DNA of 64,000 bases from Isoetes taiwanensis (lineage: Eukaryota; Streptophyta; Lycopodiopsida; Isoetales; Isoetaceae), in the NCBI GenBank assembly GCA_021234155.1, contig JAJEKV010000077.1, forward strand, positions 60,001 through 124,000. The letters are read 5' to 3'. Position numbers and translations under genes: made by a program. The notes below the pieces were generated by a model that made no database searches, was not told where the DNA came from, and saw only the letters and a program-made list of their open reading frames with translations. Shown one piece after another: positions 6,817 through 61,829 of the stretch (position 1 is the stretch's first letter; every line of letters starts with the position of its first letter).

Positions 6817-6872
6817 TCTGTAATTTATAAACAATGCAAAACCTTTCTCCAAAAACTATCTTACCCTCGGTG

Positions 6873-8486
6873 TGACGTTCCAAGTATTTATACCGGTATA
6901 AGTATAAATATGTTGACATCGGCCACCAAGGATACATACGCCACATGGGGTATGGGAACCTAGGTGGTTCACTTAAAAAGGGATTAAATTAGCTATGCTA
7001 ATTTAATTATTGACAATAATAACCTATAATTAAGGAACTAATATTTAAAACCATAATTAAGCTAATTATGGTTTGGGAAGGCCACGCACGGGCACCCTCG
7101 ATTGGTTAGCATGATAATGCTAATTGGGGTCAATAGGGTGGATCACCACCCCATATCAGCCACAACTCACCTTGAGCAAAGGAGCCACCCTTTTGTGACC
7201 GAAGAGTGAGCCACCTTGAGCAATTGGACGCCACCCTCTCACACAAGTTGAACACCAAGATCAAGAAGATGGAGATCCCCAATGACAATGGGTCGAAATG
7301 GAAACACGTGGGTGGCTAGTGTAGTTGTGAATTCTAGGATGTTTCCGCTGGGCACCGCTTGGGTTGTTGGTCTATTATCTCTCGGTTTACTCGAGGAACT
7401 AACCCTTGATTGTAAAGGTAGGTTCTCTATATATTTCGATTCCGCTTTGCTTGTAATGGATGGATTGGTGGTTGTTAGCCTAGTGTTACCTCGAAATGGG
7501 GAATTAAGGGGGTAGAGACCTCTCGAGGCTATTTATTGTAGTATGCTCCTAGATAGAGCCCTCAGATTATCCCTTTAAAAATGCGGCTGTGGCACAAGAG
7601 CCCACCGGTCATAGATGCTATGGTAATCGCTTAGCACCGGCATAGGAACACAAAGGGTGAAGTGGGGGTGGGGTCTTGCACGAACATAAAAGGCTCCCGA
7701 GACTCCTACAGTGAGCTAGGCCTGATAGCCGGGTCACGAGGGGCCGGGTATGGGTCCCGACACTGGTGTAGAGGTGTGACCCGTGATGGGGCACCTTTGC
7801 ACTTTGAGTAGATTTAGGGTGAGTAAGTCTCTGCACGGATGCGGGGTCGCCGATGCGCACGTATTCTCTAGCTCACCCATGGAACCACCGTGGATTCCGA
7901 AGGGGACGCCCCGACCCCTCATGGGACCGGGCTTCATGAACCCCCGGAGTAGGCTCGCCAGGTGATGCCTCGAGCCCTGCTCTCCGGAAGGCTATAGCGG
8001 CCATAGCGTGGAATTGACCCATCTCGCAAAGTGTGCAATGTGAGGGGGCGGATGGAGTGGACCACCCTAGCCGATGTCCTATGCCATTAACGCCGTGTTA
8101 TACCTCTCGTCACGATCTCTTGAGGCCAAGCCGCCGGGCCATCTCACCGTGAGCTCCAACCGGGTAGAACCTTGGGTTTGGGGTGTTTTCTTAGGTTTAG
8201 ATGCATATGCTTTGCCGCTGGTATTTGATGGATGTGCCACCCTTCGTGGTGGTTATTTATATATATAATTTATGCCGCGGTGCTAACCCTTGTATTCACG
8301 CTCACGACGAGGGGCCATTGAAGGCGTAATGGGCGAATGACCCTCGTGTCCTTCACTTGAGCCGCCTTATTATAGACGGCCCGAAGTTAGACTGGAGGGT
8401 CCCGCTATGGCAAGTTGGTTGCCATGGGAGGGGAAAGTCCCCGCATGTATACCGACCAGGGTCGATATGTTCGTGGAGCCGCCACA
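6873..8486 (+). repeat. 5' LTR
   Basis: Starts TGACGTTCCAAGTATTTATA and ends GGAGCCGCCACA. It aligns over its full length with 18612-20213, with many small indels. A TATA box (TTTATATATATAATTTATG) lies at about 8258-8276, giving a likely transcription start near 8300 and an R-U5 of about 190 bases. LTR-LTR differences are concentrated at CAG/CTG sites, so they should not be converted into an insertion age. Confidence 0.9.
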
Positions 8487-8503
8487 AAGGGTATCAGAGC
8501 CGG
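8487..8503 (+). promoter_or_regulatory. Primer binding site (tRNA-Met type)
   Basis: GGTATCAGAGCC begins three bases after the LTR end. It is complementary to the 3' end of plant initiator methionine tRNA, the usual primer of Ty3/gypsy and Copia elements. This supports the placement of the 5' LTR boundary. Confidence 0.85.
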
Positions 8504-9179: not shown

Positions 9180-10200
9180 TATAGCCATGCCGCCGCTTCA
9201 AGCTAACCGTGGATTTGAAGAAGTTGAGCGTGTCCCGCTTATTTGCCGTCCCTAGTCGAAAGCATCTTGGTCGAGGAAGACCCTATGATAGATACCATTC
9301 TTAACCTTTTTTGTCAAGCACTTTGTCGAGGGCCGACGAAGTCCCCTACCCTATCTTCCACTTCAACGGCTTCCTCCTCAAGTTGAATGAAGCCGGTCGA
9401 TTACACTCTCGGGGAGCAGCCGACCATGCATGGGTCGGGTTAAGTTTTATCCCCGCCAGACTGTGATGACGACCCCCGCAGAGCTTAGTTCTAATGAAGC
9501 CCGTGAGGATCATGCATCTTGGCGAGAGTGGAAGACTTACACCGATAGCCGCTGCTCCACCGTACATAAGAATGGAACGCTTTTATTACTTGGGGAAAGG
9601 TCGTGATACTTACGCATCGAATACTTTAATCTTCCTACCTTCTTGGAATGAAGACCTTAACAACTTTATCTTTGAGAATGTCCCGCCAAGGTTTAGTCAA
9701 GGCCACCGAACTCCGGGCAGAGGACATACAGCACGCCCGCATGTACCACATTAATCGAGATTGCTCCTACAGATACAAATGCGCCCGACAAGGAGGCCGT
9801 GGAGGAAGAGAGAGAGCTCCAAGAGGAAGGGGGGACCTTCATAGCCGCTACAGAGTGAGAATCAAGAGGGGGGCCAAAGAAGATCACCAACAGGACCTAG
9901 GGAGTTGTCCGTAATGTTAATCCCCGTGAAAACCCTCGCCGACGTTAACCGATCGGGCAGACCCATCTGCAAGCAGCCGAAGCCGCAAGGTAATCGGAGA
10001 CTAAAGAGAACAAAGTCCCGCCTATTAAGAGTGGGGTGCACTATAAGACCCGGACCGCAAAGCAGATGCAACAATCGCCAAGAAGACATCGCCGTAGACG
10101 AGCACATCGTTGAGCGGACAAGGCATCCCTAACACAAAGCGGGTAAGTCCATTCCGCCGCTTAAGGCACTTTTAAGCCGCTGAAACCCCACAAAAGGACC
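9180..10200 (+). pseudogene. Extra ORF of the retrotransposon, part upstream of the histone fold
   Basis: A broken plus-strand reading frame precedes the histone H3-like domain. Readable pieces are a start near 9187 (MPPLQANRGFEEVERVPLI), a piece from 9467 (MTTPAELSSNEAREDHASW), an acidic piece near 9770-9840 (DKEAVEEERELQEEGG), and a strongly basic piece near 10030-10100 (KTRTAKQMQQSPRRHRRRR) that leads into KPHKRTGTVALR. The run of basic residues is what one expects of a histone tail, and RTAKQ faintly recalls the start of H3. I see no gag zinc knuckle or protease here, and I cannot assign the N-terminal 200 codons. It may be a separate ORF or a long N-terminal extension of the H3-like protein. 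Confidence 0.4.
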
Positions 10201-10480
10201 GGCACGGTAGCACTTCGAGATACGTAGCATCGAAGACTACCGAGCCATTGATCCGCCGGGCTTCCTTCCAAAAAATTTGTAACGAGAGATTGCTCAGACT
10301 TCAAGACCGACCTAAGGTTTTCAAGCTTTTATGATCCTTGCCTTTACAGTGAAGTCGCCGAGGCGATCTTATTGAACTTTTTGAGCGACGCTAACCTTTA
10401 TGGCCCATACACGCCAAGAGGGTCACTATTATGCCCAAGGACCTTCACCGCACGGCGATCCGGGGGAATTTAGGTGATGA
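10184..10480 (+). pseudogene. Histone H3-like domain inside the retrotransposon
   Basis: Blocks of the histone H3 fold appear in order on the plus strand: KPHKR (10184-10198), GTVALR (10201-10218), TTEPLIRRASFQKI (10236-10277), REIAQ (10283-10297), DFKTDLRF (10297-10320), EVAEAILLNFLSDANLY (10351-10401), IHAKRVTIMPKDL (10407-10445) and IRG (10458-10466). These correspond to the alpha-N, alpha-1, loop-1, alpha-2, loop-2 and alpha-3 segments of H3. From GTVALR to IRG the DNA is 266 nt; canonical H3 needs 267, so the whole fold is present. The blocks lie in different frames because of single-base gains and losses, some at expected CAG codons (REIAQ and DFKTD share one base). The fold diverges clearly from canonical H3, and the tail upstream is not the canonical one, which resembles H3 variants such as CENH3. 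Orientation matches gag-pol. Function is unknown; chromatin targeting or packaging is speculation. Confidence 0.75.
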
Positions 10481-10496
10481 CACAACCGCCTTTTTC

Positions 10497-10640
10497 TCAA
10501 AAAAAAAAATTGTAACTTATCCATGTACTAGTCCCATTTTTGGGGTTGTGAATATAAAAACATTTTTTTTTTTGAAATATAATATTAAGTAAATAAAAAT
10601 TTTAATAATAATTTTGGGAAACGTACAAAAAGTATAAAAC
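10497..10640 (+). promoter_or_regulatory. A-tract followed by internal TATA-box promoter candidate
   Basis: After the histone-like ORF comes an A-rich tract (10499-10509), then an AT-rich stretch and GTATAAAACCCC with TATAAAA at 10633-10639. The following GCCATTAGGGTTTC and pyrimidine-rich leader resemble a plant core promoter and 5' UTR. An ATG follows at 10721. This suggests a separate transcription unit within the element, unusual for a retrotransposon. Confidence 0.45.
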
Positions 10641-10720: not shown

Positions 10721-12070
10721 ATGGCTCGCCAACCCCTCAAAGCAGGGTATGTGGATCTGAGAGCATTGGGACCCCATGTTCCCTTTGATCTTTCACCCCT
10801 ACCGCTTCAAAGTAGATCTTATCTCCAACATGCAGCCCACCCGTTATTATTCGCCTTCCTTCGGGCCTCTATGGAGAGGAGATTGTGCCTCATGCTGCTG
10901 GTAATGATGACGATGAGCAGCCTTTACCTCGACTTCCACACCTTACACCAGATGTTAGGGGATGATCATGCCCGTAACGCCATCAAGGGCATCGACGGCG
11001 AGGGACCTGACCTCCCTATTGCCACAATAGATCGGGAAACCTGCTTTTGAGGTTCGATTCAAGACCGCCATTATTATGGACCAGTACATAGAGGATGAGG
11101 AGATTCCTGCTGAGCATTCTTCTACGCCTCTACCTCCTGACCCAGAAGATGACGAAGTCGTCGATGAGCAGGATTTTGTGAGATGGAAGGAACTTGCTAC
11201 AGGCCTCGCCAATTTAATGTAGGCCCTGAAACTTGAAGGGTTAAACCTTCTTCCTATAGTACTCTTGAATAACCAAGAGTACCTAATCCTTGACGATATC
11301 ATGTGGGCGTACAATGTTCTTACTGGGGTCCGCCAGCAGAAAGTAGAGGTTCTCTATGATCTTGCGGAATATTGCCAAGATGACTTCATCGACTTCACTA
11401 CACCTGGTGCAACCTACACGTAGAGAGCCTATTGGCATATCGGGCCGAGGAACAAGAGCCCGCTGAGACTCTTCAATCACTTCTCGCCAAGATTCAACAC
11501 CCCCAACCTCCGTGAAGAGCAATTTATGGCACCGACACGGTCTTTCTTCGAGATCCGGCCTCGAAATCACTATGGGCTTAGGGGATCAAGACGAGGAAGA
11601 CCTTTGGGACACCAAGGTCAGCCTTAGGGATGAGAGGGAAGAAGAAGAAGAAGAGAAGCTCCCCATCGACTTGGAGAAGGAAGCCGAGACCTCCACCGAC
11701 CCCTCAAGCTAGGGCAATGGGCAAACCATGTGGCCCGATTCTTTCTCTCGCCTTTCCGCCAAGGAGAGGTGCCGTTCTTTTCCAAGAATTTAGGGCCATC
11801 TTCCTCAAGCTTTTGGTGGGCCCCCGAGCCATATCTACTTCAGCCGGCCATAAGAAGATTGATTATCGTGGTCACCACTATTACTCCGGGTCCAGAGATT
11901 TGGCTATAGCAAAGATTGGGAGACGGGCAGGCTGCGCTTAACATGCGCCTCCTTGTGGCGCCTTTTTGGCTACTTGCTTACCACCGAGGCAGCAGCTCGA
12001 GTCCGCCTTTCTCGCTAGCCCTAGCACCACTTTGATGCTATCGCCCACCTCCTCACCAATGGACGAAGAC
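10721..12070 (+). pseudogene. Second extra ORF of the retrotransposon, unrecognised
   Basis: I do not recognise this protein. The ATG at 10721 (MARQPLKAGYVDLRALGPHV) sits behind a TATA box and a pyrimidine-rich leader. A +1 shifted continuation from about 11050 to 11420 is clearly protein-like: an acidic piece (MDQYIEDEEIPAEHS), then DEQDFVRWKELATGLANL, one stop, and LDDIMWAYNVLTGVRQQKVE. Pieces near 11510-11940 read in several frames. About 12070-12230 resembles a 3' UTR (AT-rich, no coding). No zinc finger, protease or polymerase motif is visible. It may be a captured host gene or a clade-specific accessory ORF. Confidence 0.35.
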
Positions 12071-12429
12071 GAGGGACCTAGCTCCTAGATGATTGTATTA
12101 TGTATTTTGCATTCTGAAATCACCGTAAAATTTTCATTGGCAATGTCTTAAGCCATGGTTATCACTGTGATGTGTTATCCTTTATGATTACCGCTCATTG
12201 TATCAATCAATATGTAATGCCAATATAATTTTGAATGGATCTCTTCCATGATGCGCCATTATATCTCTTGGAATTCTTGGTACTATATGCTCATCGCCCG
12301 CTTTGCGTAAGAAACATTGAGGAGTAATGGAGAGAGGATCACGTAACGTATATTCGTGGATGACCAAGGACCTCCCCGAACAGATTACGGCAAAGGTACC
12401 TAAGAGTATCCTGAGCGAGAAAATGGAGA

Positions 12430-13010: not shown

Positions 13011-14600
13011 TCGTGATGTTTAATATAGACGGTGACGCAATGCCACCGCGCAGTACACCCTCAAACGCCACCGGTTAACACCAACAAGAATTGATGCTAA
13101 TGAAAAGACAAACAGGCGAAGTTATGTGCCTATGTGTTGCATGCTAACCCACCACAAAAGATGTACAAGAAGACGGACCGAGTTGCCTCCCGTTTAGTCG
13201 CTTAGTCCGCCTCCGAGTCCCACCACAAACCAGCCCGGTACCCTCGCGCAAAGAGGCCCCAGCCAGAGTCCTCTACGACAGTGCCACCTCCTCAAAGTCT
13301 GCCACTTCAGTGTCATCCGAATCATCCGCATCATCAAACCAAAGCCCGAGATAAGGAGTACCGCAAGACAGATACTGCTTGGCCCAGTTTGATGGGAAAT
13401 CTAGAGGCTGCTTGAATGCCTAATCTTGGCTGAAGGATACGTGAAAGGTTGCCACCACAAACCCACGCCCCGATTTGGTGGAAGGGCTACGCCGCCAGAG
13501 CCAAAACATCCGACGGAGTTCAAAGTCTTATGTGCCCCGCGAAATGCCAACAGATCCGCTTTCTCCTCAAAGTCCGCCACTTCAGTCATCATCTGAATCA
13601 TCCGCGATCATCCGGGTGGCCATGCAAAGCCGAGATAAGGAGTACCGCAAGACAGCTTGATACAAACCATAACTAGTATATGGAAGAATAGGAAATTGGC
13701 CCCGCTTTGATGGGAAATCTAGAGGCGGCTTGAATGCCGAATCTTGGGCCGGACGAAATGAAGGAGTTCGCAGTCCTATGGCATGACAGAGAAGGATACG
13801 AAAGGTTGCCACCACAAACCTTACCGGAGCTGCCCGCATTTGGTGGAAGGGCTATGCCGAGCCAAACATCCGGACAGAGTAGATGCAACTTCGTAAAGTT
13901 TGCCAAGGCCTTCAAATCGCATTATGTGCCCCCGCGGCACATAAATGCCAACAGATCCGTGACTTTCTAAAGTTGGAGCGAAGAGTATGTCCGCATTGTG
14001 CTTACACGGATGAGTTTATGCTGCCCGACCGTATGTACCTGGTATGAATGAGAAAAGGGCAGTGGAGGGCTATATTGAGGGTTTGGCACCATCGATCAAA
14101 CGGATGGTTAAGGCCATCGACCAAATCGCTTGCGTAATTAGGCTAAAGCATTGAGCCTCGAGGAGGACATACCAAGGAATCGGGATCCGCCCCGCTTCCT
14201 TACTCGCAGCCACGGCCGCCCACACCTTTACAAACCCCGTTTCTCCAAGTCCGGGCCCCCTCGCCAGAAACTCTTACTTGCCGCCAGAGAAGAAAGTCGC
14301 TTTTACAACGCCAGATAAGCAGAACAATGCTGGTAAGGAAGTTCGAAACCTCTTACAGTCCATTCCTAAAGAGGCCAGAGAACAGCTGCGCCGAGATAAG
14401 GCATGTTACAGGTGTATGAGGCCTGGACACTTCATGCACAATTGCCCATATGTTACCCCTGATCGCCCACCGGCCATGGCCGACCTTGACTGGGACGATA
14501 TTGAGTCAACATTACCTGCTGACGAGGACGCTCCCGAGTACATTCACGGTGCATCTCATATCCTTGCAGCTATAGAAACTGGCAATGCTGAAAGTCACCG
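13010..14600 (+). pseudogene. gag: gag of the chromovirus
   Basis: Structural protein forming the virus-like particle. The likely start is the ATG at 13039 (MPPRSTPSNATG). Gag-domain pieces lie in shifted frames: a tryptophan pair in ARIWWKGYA (about 13835-13860), QQIRDFLKLE near 13950, and VPGMNEKRAVEGYIEGL with PSIKRMVKAID near 14030-14125. A CCHC zinc knuckle (C-X2-C-X4-H-X4-C, CYRCMRPGHFMHNC) lies at 14404-14445 inside the open frame 14278-14673. A 5' part of gag is duplicated in tandem (13288-13564 and 13565-13970). Frameshifts are frequent, many near CCG/CG where CAG/CTG would be expected. Confidence 0.8.
13288..13970 (+). repeat. Tandem duplication inside gag
   Basis: CCTCAAAGTCYGCCACTTCAG begins both units. 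The first (about 277 bases) lacks two segments present in the second (about 405 bases), around TAGTATATGGAAGAATAGG and GAACGAAATG-like sequence before GAAGGATACG. Apart from these gaps the units are close to identical. It is either a real recent duplication or an assembly join of two element copies. Confidence 0.65.
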
Positions 14601-14960
14601 GCCATTTTTCCACCATAGGCCAAGTAGACAAGAAGCCTTTTGTAATTTTTATGGATACCGGGAGTACACATAATTTTGCTTCTCCTAGAATGGCCCAGTC
14701 CTACAAACCGAAACCCTAAGGTCACGAATCGAGGCCCGCCACTTTAGCCAAAGGTAAGGTTAGACATACTCATGGTCGCCGATCAACCTTAAGATGCAAA
14801 AGCGCCAGCACTGGGCCAAGGGTGCCGAAGTTAATGGATATTGGCAAATACGACCTCATTGTTGGAATGGAATTTTGGCATCCGCAAAAGCCAACATAGA
14901 TCATGAGAAGAGAGAAGTTACCTTCAACGCAGCTTAATGGAACCCGCGCAGAACTATAAA
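14600..14960 (+). pseudogene. pro: Aspartic protease of the chromovirus
   Basis: The retroviral-type aspartic protease signature DTGSTHNF begins at 14654 in the frame KKPFVIFMDTGSTHNFAS, which is shifted relative to the gag zinc-knuckle frame. The C-terminal block (KYDLIVGMEFW) follows at about 14850-14880, at a typical distance. The enzyme cleaves the Gag-Pol polyprotein. Confidence 0.8.
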
Positions 14961-15239
14961 AGGTGAACCATTCAACCCTATCATGCGCCTATGTCCATTC
15001 GACAGCTTAGATAAAGCTATACGCTAAACAAAAGCTCCTCCTCATATTAGACTTGCTTCCATTGAGTCCATTGTAAGCAAAACCAAGTAATCAACACCTT
15101 GCCACGGGATTGCCAAGATTCTCCATGAATTTAGCCGATCTTTTCCCGCATTTAAATCCGTAAGCTTCCTCCTTTAGGGGTAGAATGTGAGATAGCTTTT
15201 TAGAGCCCTGTACTAAACCCACCAAAGAAGGCCCTCGCA

Positions 15240-15960
15240 CCGCATGAGTCTTCCGTGAGTTGGCGAGCTTAAGAAACAACTTCAAGAGCTGCTAAACCTA
15301 GGTTTTATTCGACCTAGCTGCTGCCCTTTGGCCTCTATTCTTTTTGTGAAGAAAAAGGACGGCTCCTTGAGAATGTGTATTGATTATCGGCAACTCAACA
15401 AGCATACTATCAAAAATCACTATGCTTTGCCAAGGGCGATGATCCGATGGATCGCTGTAAGGGGTCAAGTATTTTCAAAGATTGATCTTCGCCAGATACC
15501 ATCGATAAGAATTAAAGAGGAAGACATCCATAAATCTGCTTTTCGCACTAGATATGGGCATTATGAGTTTACCGCTATGCCTTCGATTAATCTAATGCCC
15601 CGCAACATTTATGCGGTTGATGAATGATGTTTTCCGACAATACTTGGATGACTTTGTTGTTATTTTCTTTGACGACATTCTCATCTACAAGAAGACCTCT
15701 ACAGAGCATGAGAAACATCTTAAATTGGCTCTACAAAAGTTAAGACGCCATCGCCTTTTGCCAAGTTCTCTATGCAAGTTTGCCACCCAAAGGTTGATTA
15801 CTTGGGTCATATTATTTCAGCAGAGGGAATTGCTACAGATCCCGCGAAAGATAGAGGCCGGTAAGGGAATGGCCTATTCCGTGAAATGTCTCCTAAGTCC
15901 GCAGCTTGGGATTAGCAGATATTACCGAAAATTTGTAAAGGATTTTGCAAGGATTGCAGC
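15240..15960 (+). pseudogene. pol: Reverse transcriptase of the chromovirus
   Basis: The open frame 15328-15627 holds [20 protein letters not shown] and later [20 protein letters not shown]. The open frame from 15611 holds the catalytic box as FFDDILIY (15664-15690) preceded by YLDDFVV. Both are core motifs of Ty3/gypsy RT. The break between the frames lies at two sites where one base of an expected CAG codon is missing (ACCATCGATAAG near 15505 and GCCCCGCAAC near 15600). RT copies the element RNA into DNA in the particle. Confidence 0.9.
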
Positions 15961-16480
15961 CCCTCTTACAAATCTTACCAAGCATGAGAAGGTGAAGGAT
16001 TGGATGGAGCACCGAAGACTAAGGTTCGTGGAAGTTTCCAGCAGCTTTAAAGATGCCTTTAACCTCGCACCCGCTTCTCACGCTGTCCGATCCCGATAAG
16101 GATAAACTAGTGGCCACAGATGCCGCGAAAATTGCCACCGGTGGGGTTCTAATGCGAGGGGAGGGTTATTGCTTATGATTCAAAGAAGATGAATGAGACG
16201 TAACAACGATATCCTACCCATGACCAGAATTGCTAGTCATTGTTCAAGCTTTTATGCAATATGGAGACACTACCTCCTTGGTAGAAGGTTCCAGCTTGAC
16301 ACACGATCACCAAAGTCTCCGATATTTGACCACCCAACCCAATCTCAACCTCCGCCGAGGAGATGGATGGAATTTCTTGAAGAATATGATTTTGAGATCA
16401 TGTATAAGCCCTGAAAGCACAATGTGGTTGCGGATGCATTATCACGCCATCCCTTGGTAACCCGAACCCATTGTAATGCG
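15960..16480 (+). pseudogene. RNase H domain of the chromovirus
   Basis: LVATDA with TGGVLMR (about 16108-16160) is the first RNase H strand with its catalytic aspartate. Further on come DHQSLRYLTTQPNLN (about 16305-16350), EEYDFEIMYKP (about 16378-16410) and VVADALSRHPL in a shifted frame to about 16457. This is the usual end of the RT-RNase H connection in Ty3/gypsy elements. Frames are broken several times. Confidence 0.8.
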
Positions 16481-16599
16481 ATTTCGACACTCACAAGTGA
16501 GTTTGGTAAACGATAGAACAAACTTTAGCCACCGATCCCGAAGTTCTATGAAATTTGAGTAGTCTAAATAAGGAGGCACGCATTTATAAAGAACGCGGA

Positions 16600-17620
16600 C
16601 GCTTCCTCCCATCATATAAGAAAGAGGGCAATTTGTTGTATCACAAGGACAAGTTGTGTGTACCTCATACTTCCTGGTGCGTAAGTTAATCCTCCATGAC
16701 ACGCACAACAGCCCTATAGCCGGACATGCCGGTTTTATGAAGACCTACTTTAAAATCCGGCCCAGCTTATTTTTGGCCTTCGATGAAGAAGGACATTGCC
16801 GTACATTAAGCAAAGTCAAGTATGTCGCCAGACCAAGGCGTAACAATTAAGGACTCCGTGAGAATTGCAACCTTTGATGTGCCCAACGCTAAGGGGAAGT
16901 GATAACCATGGATTTTATAGTGGGCCTTCCACGCATTCGTGGATATGATGGGTTAATGGTCGTGGGTCGACAAATTGTCAAAAATGGCTCATTTCTTGCC
17001 ATGTCGCACCACCGGACACCGCCTTTGATAATCGCTCGCTTTTTTGCAAAAGAGATCTTCAGGTTGCACGGAATGCCACGGTCATTGTATCCGATGCAGA
17101 TCCCAAATTTGTAAGTGCATTTTGGAAAGATTTCTTCACCACCATACAAACCAAGCTTGCTATGAGTACACCTTATCATCCTCGACGGATGGTCAAACAG
17201 AGCGCACTAATCGTATTATAGAGGATATGCTACGGTTATGTGTGGAGTAAGCAATCCCAATGGGTCGACTATATTTATCTCGCTGAGTTTGCCTATAACA
17301 AGATGAAACAGAGTCTTCCGCATCGTCTCCTTTCATGATAAACTATGGTTATCAATGCCTCACCCGCACACCGGCATAACCCCTCGTTTCTAAAGTGGAG
17401 GTCTCCCAACAGCCCTTTTGGAAATGCAGCCTTAGTTGAAGAGGTTCGTGGTTACTTGTTAGCACGCAAATGCCGTAAAAGTGTAGCGGATAAACACGTA
17501 ACCCCACGAATCTTCCAAGTGGGCTTAATCCGCTTGGCTTAAAAATCAAGGTAAAACAAGCCAAGCTTAAAATTGGTAACCGCAAGAAGTTAGCACCCGC
17601 ATGGGCGGGACCATTCAAAA
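16600..17620 (+). pseudogene. Integrase of the chromovirus
   Basis: The zinc-binding histidines appear in LILHDTHNSPIAGHAGF (about 16686-16740). The DDE catalytic core follows. The first aspartate lies in VITMDFIVGLPR (about 16900-16935), the second region near 17080-17105 reads DADPKF in a shifted frame, and the glutamate lies in DGQTERTNRIIEDML (about 17185-17230). LAPAWAGPFKITE (about 17590-17630) and LKIHKVFHASLLKK (about 17670-17710) mark the C-terminal linker. Integrase inserts the cDNA into host chromatin. Confidence 0.85.
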
Positions 17621-17830
17621 TCACCGAAATTTATTGGAGAACAAATATCGCTTGATCTGCCGCCCCGCTTGAAGATCCACAAGGTCTTCCACGCGAGTCT
17701 TCTAAAAAAAGACACCCCCTGATCCGCAGAGAGGTTTTGGAAACCCCAACCCTCCTCGAAATGACAGAGGAGCAAATGAGATAGTGCCCTCAAGCTCTCC
17801 TTGACCGGCTTATAAACGTAATTCGAGGAC

Positions 17831-17925
17831 TCAAAAGTTGCAATACCGGGTCAAGTGGAAGCACTTGCCGGTGGAGGATGCTACATGGGTGATGGAAACG
17901 CACTTTGAGAAGCACTATCCGTGAT
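17831..17925 (+). pseudogene. Chromodomain at the integrase C-terminus
   Basis: The frame LQYRVKWKHLPVEDATWVME followed by THFEKHYP has the chromodomain pattern Y-x-VKW-x(6)-D/E-x-TW with its aromatic residues. It ends at a stop shortly after. Chromodomains of chromovirus integrases bind modified histone H3 tails and direct insertion into heterochromatin. Its presence alongside an H3-like ORF in the same element is striking. Confidence 0.8.
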
Positions 17926-17929
17926 TTTA

Positions 17930-18590
17930 TGCGCCAATCTCAAGGTCAAGACCATCAACGATGCTATCAACCCCGCCCCCGGCGGTAAGCTTGAAGACTT
18001 GATTCGCCGAGAATATGTAGAGGGTAGATGCATCCTAGTTAACAACTACTACCGATGATGGGATCACCTTTGTGTTCCTTAGGACGGGTGTAATCGCCAA
18101 TGTGGACATGACCGCTAACCGCTTGTAAAGCATGTAGTTCATAGCCGCATTCATCTCGGGGCTATAATAGGAACCCCGACCATTCCTTACGCCACAATGA
18201 ACTACGAACTATAGGCATGATAGGTTCCTCGTGTACATAAATTTTCTTTTATTTTCTTATAGGGTGGACCCTTCAACCACAACCTAATTATTTTATCTAT
18301 ATAAACTAATATATTACCATGTGCGCCGCTGAGCAAAGACGCGACCCGGCCCATGTTAGGGGTTGTTGATGACCCGATTTCTTCGCTTTATGTTATCTAC
18401 ATGTTCTCGCTTTGTTGTTGATCTTGGACCTTGGTCCTTGCACTTTTAATTATGATAAGGATGTAAATTGCACTTTTGGTGCTTAAACCGTTGTAAACTT
18501 GAAAGCTTTAATATATTACCTTCAAATAAGGAATTTCCTTCTTGTCATTTATTATATTTGTATCTAACCTCAATGCCGAGGACAAAGATT
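17930..18590 (+). other. 3' untranslated/internal region of the chromovirus
   Basis: A short protein-like piece (GKLEDLIRREYVEGRCILVN near 17985-18045) follows the chromodomain, then AT-rich sequence without coding signal up to the purine tract. Confidence 0.4.
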
Positions 18591-18591
18591 A

Positions 18592-18611
18592 TTTTTAAGG
18601 AGGGGAGAATG
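18592..18611 (+). promoter_or_regulatory. Polypurine tract
   Basis: TTTTAAGGAGGGGAGAATG lies immediately before the 3' LTR start TGACG. This purine-rich run is the expected primer for plus-strand synthesis. Confidence 0.8.
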
Positions 18612-20213
18612 TGACGCCCAAGTATTTATACTGGATAAGTATAAATATGTTGACACGCCACCAAGGATACATACATGCCACATGGGGTATGGGAACCTAG
18701 GTGGTTCACTTAAAAGGGATTAAATAAGCTATGCTAATTTAATTATTGACAATAATAACCTATAATTAAGGAACTAATATTTAAAACCATAATTAAGCTA
18801 ATTATGGTTTGGGAAGGCCACGCACCACCCTCGATTGGTTAGCATGATAATGCTAATTGGGGTCAATAGGGTGGATCACCACCCCCATATCAGCCACAAC
18901 TCACCTTGAGCAAAGGAGCCACCCTTGTGACCGAAATGAAGCCCACCTTGAGCAATTGGACGCCACCCTTCTCACACAGTTGAACACCAAGATCAAGAAG
19001 ATGGAGATCCCCAATGACAATGGGTCGAGTCGAAACACGTGGGTGGCTAGTGTAGTTGTGAATTCTAGGATAAGCCCTCGCTGGGCACCCGCTTGGGTTG
19101 TTGGTCTATTCTCTCTGTGTTTACTCGTGAGGAACTAACCCTTGATTGTAAAGGTAGGTTCTCTATATATTTCGATTCTGGTTTTGCTTGTAATAGATGG
19201 ATTGGTGGTTGTTAGCCTAGTGTTACCGAAATGGGGAATTAAGGGGGTAGAGACCTCTCGAGGCTATTTATTGTAGTATGCTCCTAGATAGAGCCCCAGA
19301 TATCCCGCAAATGCTGCCCGTGGCACAAGAGCCCACCGGTCATAGATGCTATGGTATTGGCTTAGCACCGCACAAGGAACACAAGGGTGAAGTGGGGGTG
19401 GGTCTTGCACGAACATAAAAGGCTCCTCGACTCCTACAAATGAGCTAGGGCCCGATAGCCGGGCCACGAGGGGGCTGTATGGGTCCGACACTCCCGGTGT
19501 AGAGGTGTGACCCGTATGGGGCACCTTGCACTTTGAGTAGATTTAGGGTGAGTAAGTCGGGTACGATGCGGGGTCAGCCGATGCACGTATTCTCTAGCTC
19601 ACCCATGGAACCACCGTGATTACGAAGGGGACGCCTCCCGACCTGCCTCATCTGACCGGGGCTTCATGAACCCCGAGTAGGCTCGCCAGGGTGATGCCTC
19701 GAGCCCGCTGCGTCTCCTGGAAGCTATAGCGAAGCCATAGCGTGAATTGACCCATCTCAAAGTGTGCACGTGAGGGGCGGATGGAGTGGACCACCCTAGC
19801 CGATGTCCTATGCCAGCCAACACCAGGTTATACCTGTCTGGCGATCTCTTGAGGCCAAGCCGCCGGTTTACCCTCACAGAGTCTAACCGGGTAGAACCTT
19901 GGGTTTGGGGTGTTTTCTTAGGTTTAGATGCATATGCTTTGCCGCTGGTATTTGATGGATGTGCCACCCTTCGTGGTGGTTATTTATATATATAATTTAT
20001 GCTTTGGTGCTAACCCTTGTATTCACGCTTCCGGCGACGAGGCTTCATTGAAGGCGTGGGCGAATGACCCCTCGCGTCCTTCACTTGAGCCGCCTTATTA
20101 TAGACGGCCCGAAAGTTAGGACGGAGGGGCTCCGCTTATGGCAAGTTGGTTGCCATGGGAGGGGAAAGTCCGTATGTATACGGTCAGAGGGTCGATATGT
20201 TCGTGGAGCCACA
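18612..20213 (+). repeat. 3' LTR
   Basis: Starts TGACGCCCAAGTATTTATAC and ends GTGGAGCCACA. It aligns with the 5' LTR over about 1.6 kb. A TATA box lies at about 19981-19997. The purine tract sits directly upstream. Confidence 0.9.
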
Positions 20214-26256: not shown

Positions 26257-28730
<2,474 letters not shown>

Positions 28731-38759: not shown

Positions 38760-40900
38760 TATGCTGATGCAAAAGCATTATATATATAAGCTACTACAAA
38801 TGCGGGTCAAGATAAAACTTGTGCTATTTTTGCTAGTACCTTCGTGTGTGTACAATTCCTATTGTTGAAAAATAAATAGATATATATGAAACTATCTACC
38901 CATTCACCTTATTCAAGTTATACATAAACAAATATAATACCAAGTTCTCCTAAAATTTTGTAAAAAAATTCATCAACAATAAAGTTGGTTACAAAACTTT
39001 TGAGGCAAATTATAGATCCCTCATGCATCTCAACTTAGAACGTTCAATCTAGGCATACAAAAAGACGATCACAATCTAACACAGAAAATGAAAATGACAT
39101 ATAAACTACTTAAGGGACTTACACGTCTTTATTGAATTGTGGATCCATAAATTTGGTTGGACACTATGTAAGTCAAAGATGCTATGGCAAGCTCTATGCT
39201 CTAAGTTATTTGTTATTATAATTGAGGCTTTGAGTTGTAGATAATCTCTATTTAATTCACAATTTTCAAGGTTGTTTTTCTCCATATTTAAACATCTAGA
39301 TATTACTATTGGAAAACCATCAAGTACATCAAAAAATAGTATTCTTGTTATTATTGACATCCTCCCCCAAACCATCAAGCACATCAAGAAATAGTATTCT
39401 TGTTATTATTGACATCCCCTTCTTTTGTCTTCAATTTGAAAAAGAGAGTGTGTTTTACTTAGATTGAGAAAATTTTGAAATGTTGAAATTGCAAAATTTA
39501 AATGTTATACTTGTAAGACTAATCTTTTTATTTTGAATTGAGTATAAATTAGGATAGTATATGCTTCACTGAAGGCTACTTCATTTAAGGTGTAATGACC
39601 ATTGTTAAATGGGTTCATAACATAAGATAGATTTCCACTCGATGATGCACCATTACTTGTTTGTTAGGAAAGTGTTCCGAAAAGAATGATCTCATGATGC
39701 TAGCTAGAAAGCCGGTTTACCACTACAAACAATTGCGTACTCGATGTCCCGATGGCCCCAAATTTTTTTTTTTTTTTTTTTTTTTTTGCAAATACTAATA
39801 AGATTGTCATCAAACTTAAAATAAGTATTCAAATGAGATGAAGCATGTGCAATCCTCTACACCATCCAAAAACTTACTATAGGCTTGATGGTTGTGGTTG
39901 CAAAGAGGAAATGAATTTTGTGTCTCTCTCATCGTACCAATAATTTTCCCCTTTGTTTAGACTTTTAAAGGGTGGTAAAAACATGAGTGGTAGGGAGCGG
40001 AGAGGGGGTTGCAGCTAATGTAAGATGCATAGGGCATGTGCTTGCATAGGGTCAAGGGAAATTATCACTTATATGGAATTTTCTTAAAAAACTTTCCCCC
40101 AGATTTCATATACCCCTCCCTTAAGTTTGCCTTTGGCCCGGAAAAAATCCCTCCCTTACACTCACATGGTTTGTATTTTTCTAAGTGCATCCCCCAGGTT
40201 TCTTATATACAAGAGGGGGTTTCTCCGGCATGTTTGCATATGCATACATACAAGTTTGGATGTAGGACCAAAATGACTTAAAAAATCCATATATTACCTG
40301 GGTCTTTTTTCACACCTTATGCACGTTGGTGCTATCCTTTTACGTATATCCCTTGGTGTTTGAATGGGCAATTTTCCATGTCGATTCTAAGTTCTCTGTA
40401 GATTTCAATCTTGACATGGATAGTCTTCGAAAAGGGCGAATGCAAGAAGAACAAGCAACATCATCTTGGTTCATGCGATCAGAATGTCGTTTTTGAAGTA
40501 TGGCTTCACACATGACATAAGGTACGTAACGAAATAAGATTAGGGCACTTTTATTGCGATGAAATGGATTGCTCAATAGACCCAGTAGAGTTTAGTCAAG
40601 AGATCCTATGTACAGCTCAGTCAAGAGATCCTATGTATGAAAACTTTAGTAGGGACATAAACTTCCAATGATTGTTTAATGAAACAATTATTTTAAAGAT
40701 TCTTTGGGGTTGGCAAGTTATGGGAATGAAGGGAATGGAGGTCTATATTCTCTATAATCCACAGCTAAGCCGACTGATGCCAGTCAGGGGCCCAAGGAAG
40801 TTACGTTAGTGATACTTCTCAATCTAAAGACACCTATGACACTGGGGGACGAAGGCGATGTGAAGGCCCAACTAAAAAAAGGGGGAGGAAGGGAGGGAAG
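38760..40900. other. Intergenic, AT-rich
   Basis: No gene. A 36-base direct repeat (CATCAAGYACATCAARAAAT then AGTATTCTTGTTATTATTGA) lies at about 39322-39356 and 39376-39410. A T25 run lies near 39762-39787. Confidence 0.5.
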
Positions 40901-40929
40901 TGCCGGTCAACCGGTGCTCACTACTAAGG

Positions 40930-40940
40930 TGTATATAATA
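40930..40940 (+). promoter_or_regulatory. TATA box of the MYB gene
   Basis: GTGTATATAATATGC at about 40930-40944 lies about 90 bases before the MYB start codon, a normal core-promoter distance. Confidence 0.5.
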
Positions 40941-41024
40941 TGCATGTATGTAATATGTACACATATTAGAGGCAAGTTGGGGAGCCTTGGGACGAGAGCC
41001 CAAACTGCAAGGAAGAGGGGTACC

Positions 41025-42142
41025 ATGAAGAAAGCTGCTAGAGGCCTGTGGTCTCCAGAAGAGGATGCCAAGCTCACTGCCTGTTTGCAGCAGAATGGTA
41101 TGGTTCGATGGAGCGCTGTGCCCAGATTGGCAGGTAAATATACTCTGCTTCTGCCAGCCATTCCAAGCCATATCTTGCAGGTTATGTACCACCAACTGTT
41201 TTTTCATTTCAAACGGCGTTCTTAATACCATGATAATCCCTTTTTTTCATCATCTTCGTTGTTCATAATATTTTCTCTTTGTTTCCTCCTGCAGGGCTGA
41301 AACAAACTGTCTTCTTAATGCCCATGCTAATCTGAAATCTATATCCTAAAATCTGTATATATCCTAAAATCTGTATATATCCTAAAATCTATATCCTTTT
41401 GTTGTTTCCGCCTGCAGGCCTGAAACGTTGCGGCAAAAGTTGCAGGCTACGTTGGGTGAATTATCTGAGACCGAATCTTATTCGCGGAAAATTCACTGCA
41501 CATGAAGAAAGGACAATTATTTGCCTCCACGAACTGGTCGGCAACAGGTTAGCCTAAAATCGCTCTGCGTATTTTGTTGAAGTTCCAAACTAAGAGAAAG
41601 AAAACGTGCGGTTCAGATGGGCCTACATTGCAAGCCATTTTCCAGGCCGAACAGATAACGAGATCAAGAACTTCTGGAACACTTACATGAGAAAGAAAAG
41701 AAAGCAGGGGGAGAGACTAAGCACCCATGGTGGTGGTGGTGGTGATGGTGGTGATGATGATGATGATTGTGCGGAGGCACGGGCACAGGCAGCAGCATCC
41801 ATGATGCATGTGGTTGTGCCCGCGTTGTCAATGAATAGATCCGGGGATGAGCTCGGAATCAACCGGGCGCAGCCAAGCTGTTCTAGATCAGAGGCTCCTG
41901 CTGCAATTCCAAACCAAATGGAGTATCCTTTGTTTGACGCTAATTCATCATGCCATGGATCTGCTCTACCAAACCCGTTCCTTCCTCACGTCCACCCTTG
42001 TGGAGCTCCTATATTTGAGTCCCAAATCCAAGCCCCTTACTCCCACTTGCCTGCCTTTGGCCCTGTCGAGACAGATCCTTTTACCCTCAATTCCTTTCAC
42101 ATGGGTCCCCACTTTCTCCCTGGTTGGGATTACATAATTTGA
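41025..42142 (+). CDS. MYB: R2R3-MYB transcription factor, intact, three exons
   Basis: Sequence-specific DNA-binding activator or repressor in the nucleus. Exon 1 is 41025-41133 ([20 protein letters not shown]...; donor GTAAAT), exon 2 is 41418-41547 (acceptor CCTGCAG, donor GTTAGC), and exon 3 is 41617-42142 (acceptor GGTTCAG). The sum is 765 nt, 254 residues. Repeat R2 has its tryptophans in LWSPEED, RWSAV and RLRWVNYL. R3 has phenylalanine in place of the first tryptophan, as usual, then RWAYIA and [21 protein letters not shown]-like sequence ([16 protein letters not shown]) is diagnostic of plant R2R3-MYBs. The intron positions (after PRLAG and within GNR) are the classical ones. The tail has a poly-Gly/Asp run (about residues 113-123) encoded by GGT/GAT repeats. 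The subgroup is undetermined. Confidence 0.95.
41283..41440 (+). repeat. Duplicated splice acceptor and tandem repeat in MYB intron 1
   Basis: TTGTTTCCKCCTGCAGGSCT followed by GAAAC occurs at about 41279-41303 and about 41403-41426. Between them CCTAAAATCTGTATATAT is repeated about three times with a period of about 21. The second copy is the acceptor that keeps the MYB frame. Using the first one would give a stop after about 14 extra codons. Confidence 0.75.
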
Positions 42143-44559: not shown

Positions 44560-47342
44560 TACATTTGGTGAAAGGCGATAAGCCAAGAAACACCAATGTA
44601 CCTTTTGGAGATATGCATCTCATCAATCGTTTCCGGGTGGGCACCGACAGTCGGGATGAGGAGGTTGACTCAGATCACCTCCCACTTTATTTGGACATGG
44701 CTTGGCAAGCCGCCGTAACCCCCACTATGCCAGCCCTCGCCATCCTCGCTTCTGACCGGATTATGAGCAGCGGAGGACTACGCCGAGATGCTCATGGACG
44801 CCCGCCAAAGCAATTTCATGGACCCCCACACTAGAGAGCGTGACAAAGCCGCTTGATCGAAAGCTATTACGGATGCAAATGGGATGTGTTTTGGCAGACC
44901 CTCCCCGCCGCCGCCAGTGGACAACAACCTTTCGCGAATCGGTGGTTTGATGCGAGTGTAAAGAACGAACGCCCCGGGCTAACGCTCGATCCGGATCACC
45001 CGCCAGTAAAAGCCACCACACAAGCATCCCGCACCCATCCGGTTGAGACAAAGGCGCAAAGTACCTTGCCGTGCACCGGGGAGATGTTCGGCCGGGCCGA
45101 CACTCATCCTCGAACCTTTTACGCAGAGTGCCAAGGCCGCCTAGCCTACGTGGGACATCACACCCCGGAGTGGGAGCAAGATTGCAGCCATTCTATGACC
45201 CACCGTGGACGCTGGTGACACCCATACCCCCCCACAGATGGCCCCGCGGAGGAGGATATTGTGGAGGGCCCGCGAACGGGCGGGCTAATGGGAAGGCAAA
45301 CACCTCTATGGTATGCGCACCGAAGTTACTCAAATGGGCGTGGCGTACCGGTGCCGATCCTCACCACCCCTGCTCAACAGCATTGCGGGAAGGTTTCCAA
45401 CAATGGACCATGCTGGTGGTTGTCCCCATTCACAAGGCGGGTAACCCACACCGCCCCGCCAATTACCGGACGATCATGGCCGCCAAGATTTGCCAAACCG
45501 CTATCGGCATTCTCGAAAGCAAAGCAGCTGACCTTACCGGGCGTAGGCGCTGATGTGCGAGCCCTCAAACAAGCGTGCTTTAGACCGCCACTCAATGGTT
45601 GACCATATCTTTACATCGCGGGCACCGATTGAAGACATCCAAACCATCGGTGGGACTTGTATTGTTGTTTCGCGGACTTCGCTGGCTTTCGACACGGCCC
45701 CCGAAAAGCTATGGGCTAGATCAAGGCCAACTCACGCCGCTGCCTCGCGTAATGCCATATACGTGCTGTATGAGAGTTGTTTTGGCGTGATGCGTACCGA
45801 CGGGCCAAGCATTCACCAAGAGTATCCGCTGTCCCCGCAGGGCTGCCCTCTCACCAACACTTTTGGCCTCTACATTGACCGCTTAGGAGCCCCTCTTATC
45901 GAGCATGGGGATGGCATACAACTTTTGCACTGTGTCGTCCGCCAGCTCATCTATGCAGACGATGTTGACCTTCCGCCCACACCCCGTGGCTATGCAAATC
46001 CCATTTGATGCCCTAGACACATTCCCGCCGGCCAGCTACGACATGCGCTGCGAATCCGCCAAGACCGTGGTGGTTCTCATATCCTCTTCACGCCACCCCC
46101 GCACTCACATATCGAGGCCACCTGGAGGTCACGCCCACCTACAAGTACCTAGGGGTGGAGTTCCCCCTCGCCAGCTAGAGACGCCCATCCGCTTTTGTGG
46201 CAAAGAGGCCGAAGGCTTTATGCCATGCACTAACACCACCAAGCAGAGCTCTATGATTGGGGCCATCAACACATCCGCTTCCGGGTCGCCGGTCGAAATC
46301 GCCCTTCAGATGGGGTCGAGGTTTGGGGGTCCGACGCCTTTTAGCTTACTGAATGACTTGGAGCAGTGTGTATAAGCATTTTTGGCACGGCACTTGGGGT
46401 GAAACCTCCAGCCCCCATCGATTCTCGCCGCAGAAACCGGATTCTGCCGCCGCCAGGGTGCATCTTGATAGACACATCGCCTATTTTCGTAAAAGTGGTT
46501 AATATGGGGTGCTCCGCCCCGCACCGGGCTTACGCCGGGCAATAATTCCAGCAATGCCTGGCCCTGCTGAGGGGTAAGAGAGATCGTTGGTTCGGCCAGA
46601 TGGAACGTGCAGAGCAATGATGCGGCCGGTGGACATAGAGGCCGATCGCGATGTACCGGGCGGAATAATGGACGCTTGCTTCCTTGGCAAGCTCGACCCC
46701 TGCCTTCTAGAGGAGGTCAAAATGGCCCATTACAAGGAGCACATCAACCCCATTCAGTGGCCCGCAGCTCTACCTCCTCCCAAACCGCCTCGAAAAGCAC
46801 GCTCATTGCCTCCATTCGCGACAGTGCCCACCATCTCCGCATTGAGATGGGCAGTGGATTGGGGAGCCCCGCCAGATGTGCTTTGTCGGGCTGCCAAACG
46901 GGTGCCATTGAGGATGAGTCTCACACTTTCCGTGAGTTGCTCAAAGATTCAATCGATCCGGCCGATATCGCCCCTTAGTACCACGGACTTGCCCCTACAT
47001 TTGCCGATGAACACACCGGCCAAGATGCGTTCGAGTCGCATACATTTATGAGGTAATCGATCCGCGAGCCCACCTTGCCCCCTCACCGCCGCCGGGACGA
47101 CGCACTATGGGTACATGAGTGTATATATATTTGTGTGTTTTTGCATTTTGTATGTTGGAACAGTTTGTCAGCAGGCTGATTGCTGCCACGGTTTTTCCCT
47201 CGAAAACCCTTCGGAGCGGGGGTTTTTTAATCCGGGTAGTAATCTGCTTGCGGCGCTTTTGTATTGGGTCCCATAGACCGATTGGTCTCTGTGGACGATA
47301 AAAATACCTTCCTTCCTTCCTTCCTTCCTTCCTTCCTTCCTT
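44560..47342 (+). mobile_element. RTE-like LINE, 5'-truncated
   Basis: The longest LINE copy here. VDSDHLPLYLDMAW (about 44660-44705) is the end of an apurinic-type endonuclease (SDHxPL). RT blocks follow: VVVPIHKAGNPHRPANYRT (about 45415-45470), VDHIFTSRAPIEDIQ (about 45598-45645), ISPQGCPLT-like PLSPQGCPLTNTFGLYIDRL (about 45826-45885) and the catalytic LIYADDVDL (45946-45972). ESHTF (about 46918) is part of the C-terminal block shared with the copy at 33-34.7 kb. The 3' end shares CCCATAGACCGATTGGTCTC with the other copies and finishes in a CTTC repeat (47304-47342). Frames are broken, often at CCG/CG. Confidence 0.85.
47304..47342 (+). repeat. CTTC microsatellite at the LINE 3' end
   Basis: About nine tandem CTTC units. 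The position at the LINE terminus indicates it is the element's tail and not an independent microsatellite. Confidence 0.85.
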
Positions 47343-56421: not shown

Positions 56422-58617
56422 ACCCGAACTAGTTAAAACTAGACCGGACATATCCTCGGTCAATCCCTTGGCGTTTATCCTCCCATTACTAGAATGAGCC
56501 TTTCTAGCATGGTACCCCATGTCCCATCCACATCAAAAACATCGGTCGAGATAAGCCATAAACTTTCTCATAATATTTGTCTTTGAAGCTTGTTACATTT
56601 GAAATCCCTAGAATATTAAAGCCATTGCCGGATAAGCCATTTTAGTACACAATATGCCTTTAGACATTAAAGTCATTATATTAGAGTGTAACAAAGTACT
56701 TATTACACAAGTTTATAATGTATGCAATCGCCTTTCTTATTTTGAATCCACTGACCATGTTCATAATGTCAAAATGACCATGTTCATAATGCTAAAATGA
56801 CATTTACAATTAGTTCATGCTACATAATTGATGTCAACCATCATGCAACCTTTGTCTAAAATTTCATAAAGCTTACCACAACTGTAGAATATAGCTCACT
56901 ATAATTTGTAGAGTATAGCCCACAATCATTCATTACACTTAAAATAGTTTAAGATCTATTCAGAGTTACACAAAAGATATAAAGTAGCAAATCCCTAAAC
57001 TTGTTTATCTTCAAATACTCCATATTCCTTCAAGCGTAAAAAAACTTTTGAAAGCATAAGCTACAATGAGAAGAGAGTCCCAAGACTGCAGCCAACCATG
57101 CAAACATTAGCGGTAACCCGGTAAGATGCAAGGGCCAAAGGTACATTAGGACTCTCGGTTTATCACCGATCACCCATTGTGCCTTTTGCCCTCGCTAATT
57201 TAAGCAAAGAAGGATATGAAGTTGGAAATTTATGCCCTCAAAGATTCACGGTTCATAAGAAATCGAGTTTTAACATGCCCAATCCCTCAAACTATTATAA
57301 CAAGGCTCTTGCCATTGTATAATTATATAACCAAAGACACTAGAGTGTATGCTTTCTATGTACAGAGTAATGAGAGAAGCATTATCCTCTTAACCAAGTC
57401 AGTATTAACGCTATATATAATAGCAAATGCAAAAAAAAAGAACTTGTAGTTGTTCTGATCCAAGTCCAGGTTATCTTCATCTTGAATTTGCAATGATAAA
57501 CCCGTAGAAGCATTCCTAGTAGCCATCGTTATGCCTCTTATGACCAAGCTTACGCCTCAACTAAGCTAAATCCGAAATCTAAGAACTCAAATGAGCCACC
57601 TAGATATAGAGATTTTAATTGTAGAAGCCGGGCGGTCAGATGCAATCCGCAATCTGCTACATGCAATCTACATCTGAGATAGGCTTTTATCAAGAAAACG
57701 CCTATTGTATTGAAGCGACAAATCAGCTAAGGCAAATTACATTCTGCGTCCATCTGAGATAGGCCATTTGCCGAATCGCCTCTCTATCAGATTAGGTTTC
57801 GGTGACTGGAAAAGTTACGCCCATACAATAGAATACATGTTAGGGGTTAAATGTAACCGCCTACCATACTTTTGTACTATGTACTTGTGAGTATGGCCCG
57901 ATTTTTATTGTTATGCATATACCACAAAGATATTTTGTGAAAGCTCAAAACCACAACCTTTTTCCAAGGTGCACTCCAAGGGGAATCTTAGTCGAAGACA
58001 TCCCAAGGCCTTAGATAACTATTCCCTAAGTATTCCGAAGATATTTCTTTTGTATATTGAACGTCCATCATGCTGAACCAAAGTAGAGGGTCCATTCAAG
58101 TATACAAATTCAAAGCATCCCCATGGTTTTGGATAGTAGAACATGCTATACACAATGTACACGTCAACACCCAAGTGTTGGCACCATCAAGTTAACATGT
58201 ACACACCATTATTGTAGACACACCATTTTCTGCTGGTTATACACCATGGTACATTTGTGTCATCCCAAGTCCATCATCATTTTTCAAGGTATATTTCCCT
58301 TAAGGCCATATTCTACTATTGCCCCGTGAGAGTCATTTTTTACGTAGCAATCACATTCCCGCATCTAGAATTTTAAGGAGATAATCATCCGTAGTTTTTC
58401 TAAACTATTCAATCACTAAAGTCCACATCCAATCTAGTTAGAATGTAGACCACTCAAGTCCCTAGCCATGGAGCATTGAGGAAACCCATATGGCCATATC
58501 ATTGGTTTAATTTGTGCAAGTTTTATTCCATACACCATAACACCCACTACTAGTGCTCGATTTCAAAACCTTCCCAAGCTTGGGAGATGGAGCATGCAAC
58601 AAATAATCATAATAAAA
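56422..58617. repeat. 2.2-kb direct repeat, copy A
   Basis: Begins CCCGAACTAGTTAAAACTAG after an A20 run and ends AATCATAATAAAAAA. It aligns end to end with 59649-61818. Long blocks are identical, and nearly all differences are at CAG/CTG positions. There is no convincing ORF on either strand. The 68-codon open stretch at 58123-58329 recurs only because the DNA is copied. There are no TG...CA LTR ends and no primer site. Confidence 0.85.
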
Positions 58618-58619
58618 AA

Positions 58620-59645: not shown

Positions 59646-59648
59646 GGC

Positions 59649-61818: not shown

Positions 61819-61829
61819 AAAAAAATAAA

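Follow-up and report, generated by a model that had tools for sequence, protein, structure and literature searches.

A chromodomain retrotransposon of Isoetes taiwanensis appears to have captured and maintained a histone H3 variant

Why should sequence resembling histone H3 lie between the 5' LTR and gag of a retrotransposon? The question arises from a 64,000-nucleotide stretch of the Isoetes taiwanensis genome (the window), in which a first-pass annotation had read blocks of H3, in H3 order, at 10184-10480 on the strand of gag-pol. A frameshift-tolerant alignment of a plant H3 to positions 10000-10600 bore this out, scoring 218 with 74 of 129 residues identical, whereas 100 dinucleotide shuffles of the segment reached at most 51 (mean 33, sd 5) and the best H3 score elsewhere in the window, on either strand, was 56. 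By query, the segment scored 221 with H3.3, 215 with H3.1, 121 with CENP-A and 114 with Arabidopsis CENH3, 50 with H4 and 26 with a scrambled H3. The blocks are nevertheless spread over three frames with about 10 shifts, leaving no single open H3 frame, and Pfam Histone matched one of three open window pieces, at an E-value of 0.0057 that is under its cut-off. When neutral decay of the window copy alone was simulated, 452 of 459 matched runs gave mismatches less conservative than the actual ones, but neither the share of positive BLOSUM pairs (as high in 168 of the 459) nor the total score (as high in 140) stood out.

The H3-like blocks are enclosed by a Ty3/gypsy element of ~13.3 kb on the forward strand. 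Its 5' LTR of ~1.6 kb (6871-8487), which starts TGTGACG, pairs by blastn with 18610-20210 at 89.9% identity over 1648 columns, placing the 3' LTR at 18610-20212. A primer binding site, GGTATCAGAGCC, can be read at 8490-8501 and resembles that for initiator tRNA-Met; a polypurine tract, AAGGAGGGGAGAA, stands ahead of the 3' LTR at 18597-18609. Gag (13065-14673) carries a CCHC zinc knuckle (zf-CCHC, E 0.0043, under cut-off), with Ty3_capsid and Retrotrans_gag matched in a relative. Pol (14720-17930: protease, reverse transcriptase (RT), RNase H, integrase, SH3 and chromodomain) is broken in the window, where RVT_1 passed its Pfam cut-off (E 3.1e-08), pieces of RNase H, H2C2 and SH3_Tf2-1 fell under theirs, and the PDB chain nearest to the RT was that of Ty3. 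One relative has the complete set in the Ty3/gypsy order of gag, protease, RT, RNase H and integrase, although the integrase family rve itself lies just under cut-off. The chromodomain that the first-pass annotation had ascribed to the element was confirmed in this one scanned relative, at the integrase C-terminus (PF00385, E 6.3e-08, 32.9 bits against a cut-off of 25.1); a remnant can be read by eye at 17810-17930 in the window. On its LTRs, primer binding site, polypurine tract and domain order, and the chromodomain of its relative, the window element is a broken copy of a Ty3/gypsy chromovirus.

Extra sequence amounting to 4.5 kb separates the 5' LTR from gag (~13065). We considered a nested DNA transposon as its origin and rejected it, having found no convincing terminal inverted repeats; the candidate arms, 14-24 nt long, were for the most part A/T-rich or imperfect. 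Gag contains internal repeated segments that are 70-78% alike (13288-13880). Other features read by eye in the window are a beta-tubulin-like gene (26257-28462, reverse strand) and an R2R3-MYB-like gene (40809-42142, forward strand), both as open exon-sized pieces, and GC-rich ORFs with a YADD motif at 44853-47051, apparently a remnant of a non-LTR reverse transcriptase.

Alignment to open frames of other copies showed that the coding unit is larger than the H3-like unit first placed at 10184-10480: the fold is there (10183-10470), but as the C-terminus of an ORF1 that spans 9190-10473 and is interrupted by frameshifts and stops in the window copy. In unbroken copies ORF1 is the first ORF after the 5' LTR, with open frames of up to 485 aa and a protein of roughly 440 aa. 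It runs from an N-terminal region of ~200 aa (ORF1N; 9190-9700 in the window, end approximate) through a variable Q/E-rich linker and a basic stretch to a complete H3 fold at the stop codon. The H3 N-terminal tail, in modified form, lies within ORF1 at 10080-10182 (start approximate). An acidic ORF2 of ~460 aa follows between ORF1 and gag (10721-12088); it is broken in the window and open for at least 430 aa in several copies.

We then looked for this arrangement across the assembly (1.658 Gb, 1110 contigs). With the DNA of 10120-10480 as query, the best 40 of 537 candidates were scored; besides the window these were 39 places at 79-85% identity. When the H3 ORF of one copy was used instead, the best 150 of 8765 loose candidates all matched, at 77-100%; by eye, 116 of these 150 had no stop within the match, 34 had one, and 37 lay in stop-free open frames of at least 400 aa. 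Pfam Histone (PF00125) scored 149.5 bits (E 6.8e-44) and 148.7 bits in two copies, far over the cut-off of 26.4; the histone match whose absence the first-pass annotation had named as a refutation is thus highly significant. Against the PDB, the best chains for the element H3 were H3, led by histone H3.3 (E 1.4e-51), and H3 was the best fit among the histones compared. Two AlphaFold models were poor (pLDDT 40.5 and 59.9), so the fold assignment rests on sequence.

Fourteen copies, selected mostly for long open frames, were read over ~9.8 kb each. ORF1N and H3 were found in all 14, as were LTR matches (one a fragment), ORF2 in 13, and gag and RT within reach in nine; the remaining five may be non-autonomous or longer. 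An 11-base primer-binding-site word directly follows the LTR in nine of the 14 and stands at another place in one more. The copy without ORF2 passes from the H3-bearing ORF1 to gag-pol, with Pfam domains for Ty3 capsid, protease, RT, RNase H, integrase, SH3 and Chromo. We also searched with ORF1N, scoring the best 150 of 2829 candidates, and followed four copies absent from the H3 search results. H3 lay downstream in all four: two were complete, one was frame-broken before the fold and cut at the end of the stretch, and one had a truncated H3. H3 was likewise present in copies whose ORF1N was only 62-78% identical. Other copies of the family thus carry the segment, whether picked mostly for long open frames (14/14) or by ORF1N (4/4), and the second refutation named in the first-pass annotation, copies lacking it, failed as well.

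Why, then, does the window copy read as broken? Differences between its LTRs are clumped: counted in 25-column bins they have a variance/mean ratio of 3.91, where 2000 simulations gave a maximum of 1.53, and long perfect stretches separate the clumps. A CG lies near 23 of the 25 wide clumps (random mean 12.7, maximum 20), and only seven differences are isolated substitutions. Against the ORF1 of another copy, the window ORF1 is identical in 1097 of 1331 columns (82%), with 46 gap events, a transition:transversion count of 82:67, and a CG close to 31 of its 36 wide clumps, against a random mean of 22.7 and maximum of 30. Three control pairs of other copies, which are somewhat closer to each other (88-91% identical), showed 1, 0 and 0 gaps, transition:transversion counts of 79:29, 104:53 and 93:39, and CG counts inside the random range. 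Two direct repeats of 2.2 kb elsewhere in the window (56423-58619 and 59648-61822, 90% alike, perhaps the LTRs of another element) show a similar pattern: their variance/mean ratio is 2.82, with simulations not exceeding 1.38, and a CG accompanies 23 of their 36 wide clumps (a random mean of 9.2 and maximum of 16), though they have 19 isolated substitutions, of which 17 are transitions.

We infer that the breaks in the window copy probably are consensus errors at methylated repeats, because its differences are clumped and linked to CG and its gap events are in excess of those in other pairs. True decay of an old, dead insertion would fit the ~10% difference between the window LTRs and the greater distance of the window ORF1 pair than of the controls. 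Decay is nonetheless improbable given how strongly the LTR differences are clumped, how nearly all wide LTR clumps lie at CG with so few isolated substitutions, and how many gap events the window ORF1 shows (46) when no control pair has more than one.

To ask how the H3 has evolved, as the first-pass annotation had suggested, dN/dS was calculated as Nei-Gojobori pairwise means over unbroken stretches only, so these ratios, like the copy counts, lean to conservation, since copies were chosen by similarity and broken stretches were excluded. Over the 89 codons of the fold, 28 of 30 top-ranked copies gave a dS of 0.439, a dN of 0.020 and a ratio of 0.047. A lower-ranked set, which softens but does not remove the similarity bias, gave 0.055 at a dS of 0.70 (19 of 20 copies), and the ten-kb copies gave 0.029 (14 of 14; eight places in common with the top-ranked set and one with the lower-ranked). 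For comparison, RT gave 0.036 (nine copies), the H3 tail with adjoining linker 0.106-0.126, ORF1N 0.104-0.116 (14 of 30 and 12 of 14 copies usable) and ORF2, also under purifying selection, 0.10-0.15 (11 of 30 and 7 of 13). The seven copies nearest the window gave 0.32 for the fold (four used), 1.2 for the tail (five) and 0.9 for ORF1N (three), but at a dS of 0.016-0.13 they are too close or frame-damaged to be informative.

With 0.029-0.055 in three partly overlapping sets, the H3 fold is under strong purifying selection, and we are very nearly certain that the H3 is encoded by the element and selected. A single very recent burst as the cause of its retention is disfavoured because mean dS is 0.44-0.70. 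A neutral captured fragment, nothing but a pseudogene, had been favoured at first because of the ~10 breaks in 270 nt of the window copy; it was rejected on the fold ratios and the unbroken state of other copies.

A query of the assembly with canonical H3 returned, among the matches listed, 15 host-type genes at 97-99% identity and 135 other places at 72-87%, the latter in open frames of 111-567 aa. Five of the 135, read over ~550 bases each, represent a second H3 type with its own recurrent substitutions and different tails. We built a maximum-likelihood tree of 34 rows (24 element, three host, four CENH3 and three other H3), in which all 24 element rows form one group (support 97/90; 98% of bootstrap trees) that attaches among canonical H3, with every element row outside the CENH3 group (support 100/99). 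The tree thus recovers a variant with its own history, as the first-pass annotation had supposed, and groups it with canonical H3, not with CENH3. Much of the divergence and of the odd tail read in the window copy stems from local scrambles, which look in part like consensus error. E77 of the three host genes is common to 16 of the 24 element rows, seven others having D and one Q. A single capture of a host-type H3 appears to be the simplest reading of these sequences.

Database searches found H3 as the recognizable part of ORF1. A read-through of the broken window ORF1 matched H3 proteins, the best 120 of 1742 covering 24-30% of the query, the H3 part, and ORF1 minus H3 matched nothing among 978 candidates. 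H3 alone gave 50 matches, none above 62% identity; a CENH3-like protein of Diphasiastrum complanatum was among the protein-database matches. Scans of two copies each found no Pfam family for ORF1N or ORF2. A Foldseek search with the low-confidence ORF1N model reached a best E of 1.8, and a profile match of ORF1N to an acetyltransferase in the PDB (E 0.06) was taken as chance. Whether ORF2 might be a chaperone for the element H3 is a question we raise here. No relative of the RT piece, the LTR word or ORF1N was found in viral contigs. An exact 20-base LTR word occurs once in a Flavobacteriales metagenome-assembled contig (2681-2700), through chance or contamination.

The tail of the element H3 could be read 72 times in other loci, with certain places entering twice and 50 distinct sequences in all. 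Every one of these tails lacks both ARKS and KSAP over the 34 aa next to the fold, whereas each of three host H3 genes fetched has ARKS twice; TGGK, the K14 block, is kept in 62 of the 72. One copy of the second type has an ARKS ~50 aa upstream of the fold. The element H3, being the C-terminus of ORF1, does not have the free N-terminal tail with ARTK, ARK9S and ARK27S of canonical H3. Within the fold, the 20 first-type rows all depart from host H3 at positions 64, 86, 87, 102 and 105, and 19 of them at position 60; at position 107 every one of the 24 element rows does so. The 24 rows without exception retain K56, K79, C110, H113, K115, K122, D123, R128, R129 and R131, although single lower-ranked copies depart at K79, K115 or D123; we take these residues to serve in contacts with DNA or between H3 and H3'.

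On this evidence, an H3 variant has been captured by a chromodomain retrotransposon, which has kept it as a fusion to an N-terminal domain of no known family. What would the element use it for? H3K9 methylation is probably the mark read by chromovirus chromodomains, and H3K9 and H3K27 methylation recruit silencing. Chromodomains read histone marks and target heterochromatin (PMC9289625, PMC2864245). We propose that the ORF1 protein would be made from the element, that its H3 would pair with host H4, the contact residues looking kept, and that it would be deposited on element chromatin or new cDNA. Because the ARKS motifs are absent from the tail, such nucleosomes would be unable to carry K9 or K27 methylation and would block silencing marks, and the element could thereby be held open to transcription. 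Its copies could also be hidden from its own integrase. Engagement of nucleosomes or H4 by the element H3 is probable on the kept residues; anti-silencing through an H3 without the K9 and K27 motifs is a conjecture that we place somewhat below even odds. To the full reading, in which the fused H3 both shields copies from heterochromatin and hides them from a K9-reading integrase (self-avoidance), we give a probability of roughly 0.3. Deposition by the normal H3 chaperones is uncertain, since the H3 tail is internal to the ORF1 protein and not a free N-terminus, and residues 86-87, 102, 105 and 107, being unlike host H3, speak against the proposed reading. Loss of K9 and K27 could also be a simple result of fusion and tail decay.

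Several other uses of the same protein have to be weighed. The H3 fold of ORF1, with H4 or as a DNA-binding cap, might compact the cDNA or ride host histone importins into the nucleus. Conservation of both the fold and the basic linker would suit such a role, as would residues that look kept for DNA contact, and an element-specific fusion is what one would expect of a particle or pre-integration component. However, gag already supplies a Ty3 capsid and a zinc knuckle, and packaging or import leaves the loss of both ARKS motifs unexplained; we regard this as unlikely. A fused H3 might instead stay off the element itself and, by sequestering host H4 or the H3 chaperones ASF1, CAF-1 and HIRA, weaken host chromatin at large. 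Viral singlet histones are considered to act through the nucleosomes of the host (PMC9145170), which offers some precedent for such a decoy. The element H3 keeps its core yet differs from the host at positions 86-87. These positions lie, we presume, near a chaperone-facing stretch. The constrained tail (dN/dS of about 0.11-0.13) suggests more than a core decoy, and we consider this role improbable.

Some chromoviruses target centromeres, and as a chromovirus protein the H3 could in principle compete with centromeric H3 or direct the element to centromeres, but its position outside the CENH3 group, its score of 221 to canonical H3 versus 114 to CENH3 and the absence of the CENH3 loop changes make this very improbable. 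Least credible is that an active element carries a functionless host H3 fragment as a passenger and that the window copy is a pseudogene of the ordinary kind: broken copies, with a stop in 34 of the best 150 places, and fungal transposons in which captured H3 then decayed (PMC6710886) would fit it, but not the low fold ratios at such mean dS, the 116 stop-free matches, the conserved tail, or H3 retained where ORF1N has diverged to 62-78%.

Transposon silencing by hosts works largely through histone H3 marks. If the proposed shielding by a selected, element-encoded H3 is true, losing the two sites for such marks would answer that defence directly, and whether mobile elements can rewrite their chromatin becomes testable. 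Studies of chaperone choice and tail function would also gain a natural H3 variant that has recurrent changes and well over 100 copies.

The nearest comparison in function is VANC of the VANDAL transposons, which is not known to be a histone. It is a transposon-encoded anti-silencing protein, a role that for the present element is only inferred, and it acts sequence-specifically, unlike the H3 described here (PMC5735166, PMC10398659). In layout, the element recalls the additional ORFs (aORFs) of plant LTR retrotransposons, extra sense ORFs beside gag-pol as ORF1 and ORF2 are here; according to a review, aORFs between pol and the 3' LTR are the commonest, whereas ORF1 and ORF2 are 5' of gag, and the word 'histone' is absent from its main text (PMC7264820). 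A Ty3/gypsy lineage of Phalaenopsis likewise keeps an acquired host-type regulatory domain, an AlkB-like 2-ODD, in an additional ORF; that protein is an RNA demethylase and its element was compared with the Tat family, whereas ours is a structural chromatin protein in a chromovirus (PMC9289625). Viral singlet histones (bracovirus H4 and DNA-virus H3-like proteins) are also host-like parasite histones (PMC9145170, PMC5423620) with an altered or longer N-terminal tail that are thought to act within host nucleosomes, but they come from DNA viruses or polydnaviruses and H4 is the best studied, whereas here a retrotransposon carries H3.

We found no earlier description of a retrotransposon-encoded histone in the literature searched, which left most subscription papers and preprints outside; captured host genes and mobile-element histones as such are known kinds. 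The nearest precedent is the H3-like gene (H3L) of hAT DNA transposons in the fungi Pyrenophora tritici-repentis (PMC3538342) and Pseudocercospora fijiensis (PMC6710886). There, as in the present element, the transposon took up an H3-like coding sequence from its host and amplified it along with itself. The fungal carrier is a DNA transposon with copies that are near-identical or inactivated by RIP, whereas the Isoetes element is a chromovirus in which H3 is fused to an ORF, has lost the ARKS motifs and has been held by purifying selection over a mean dS of 0.44-0.70.
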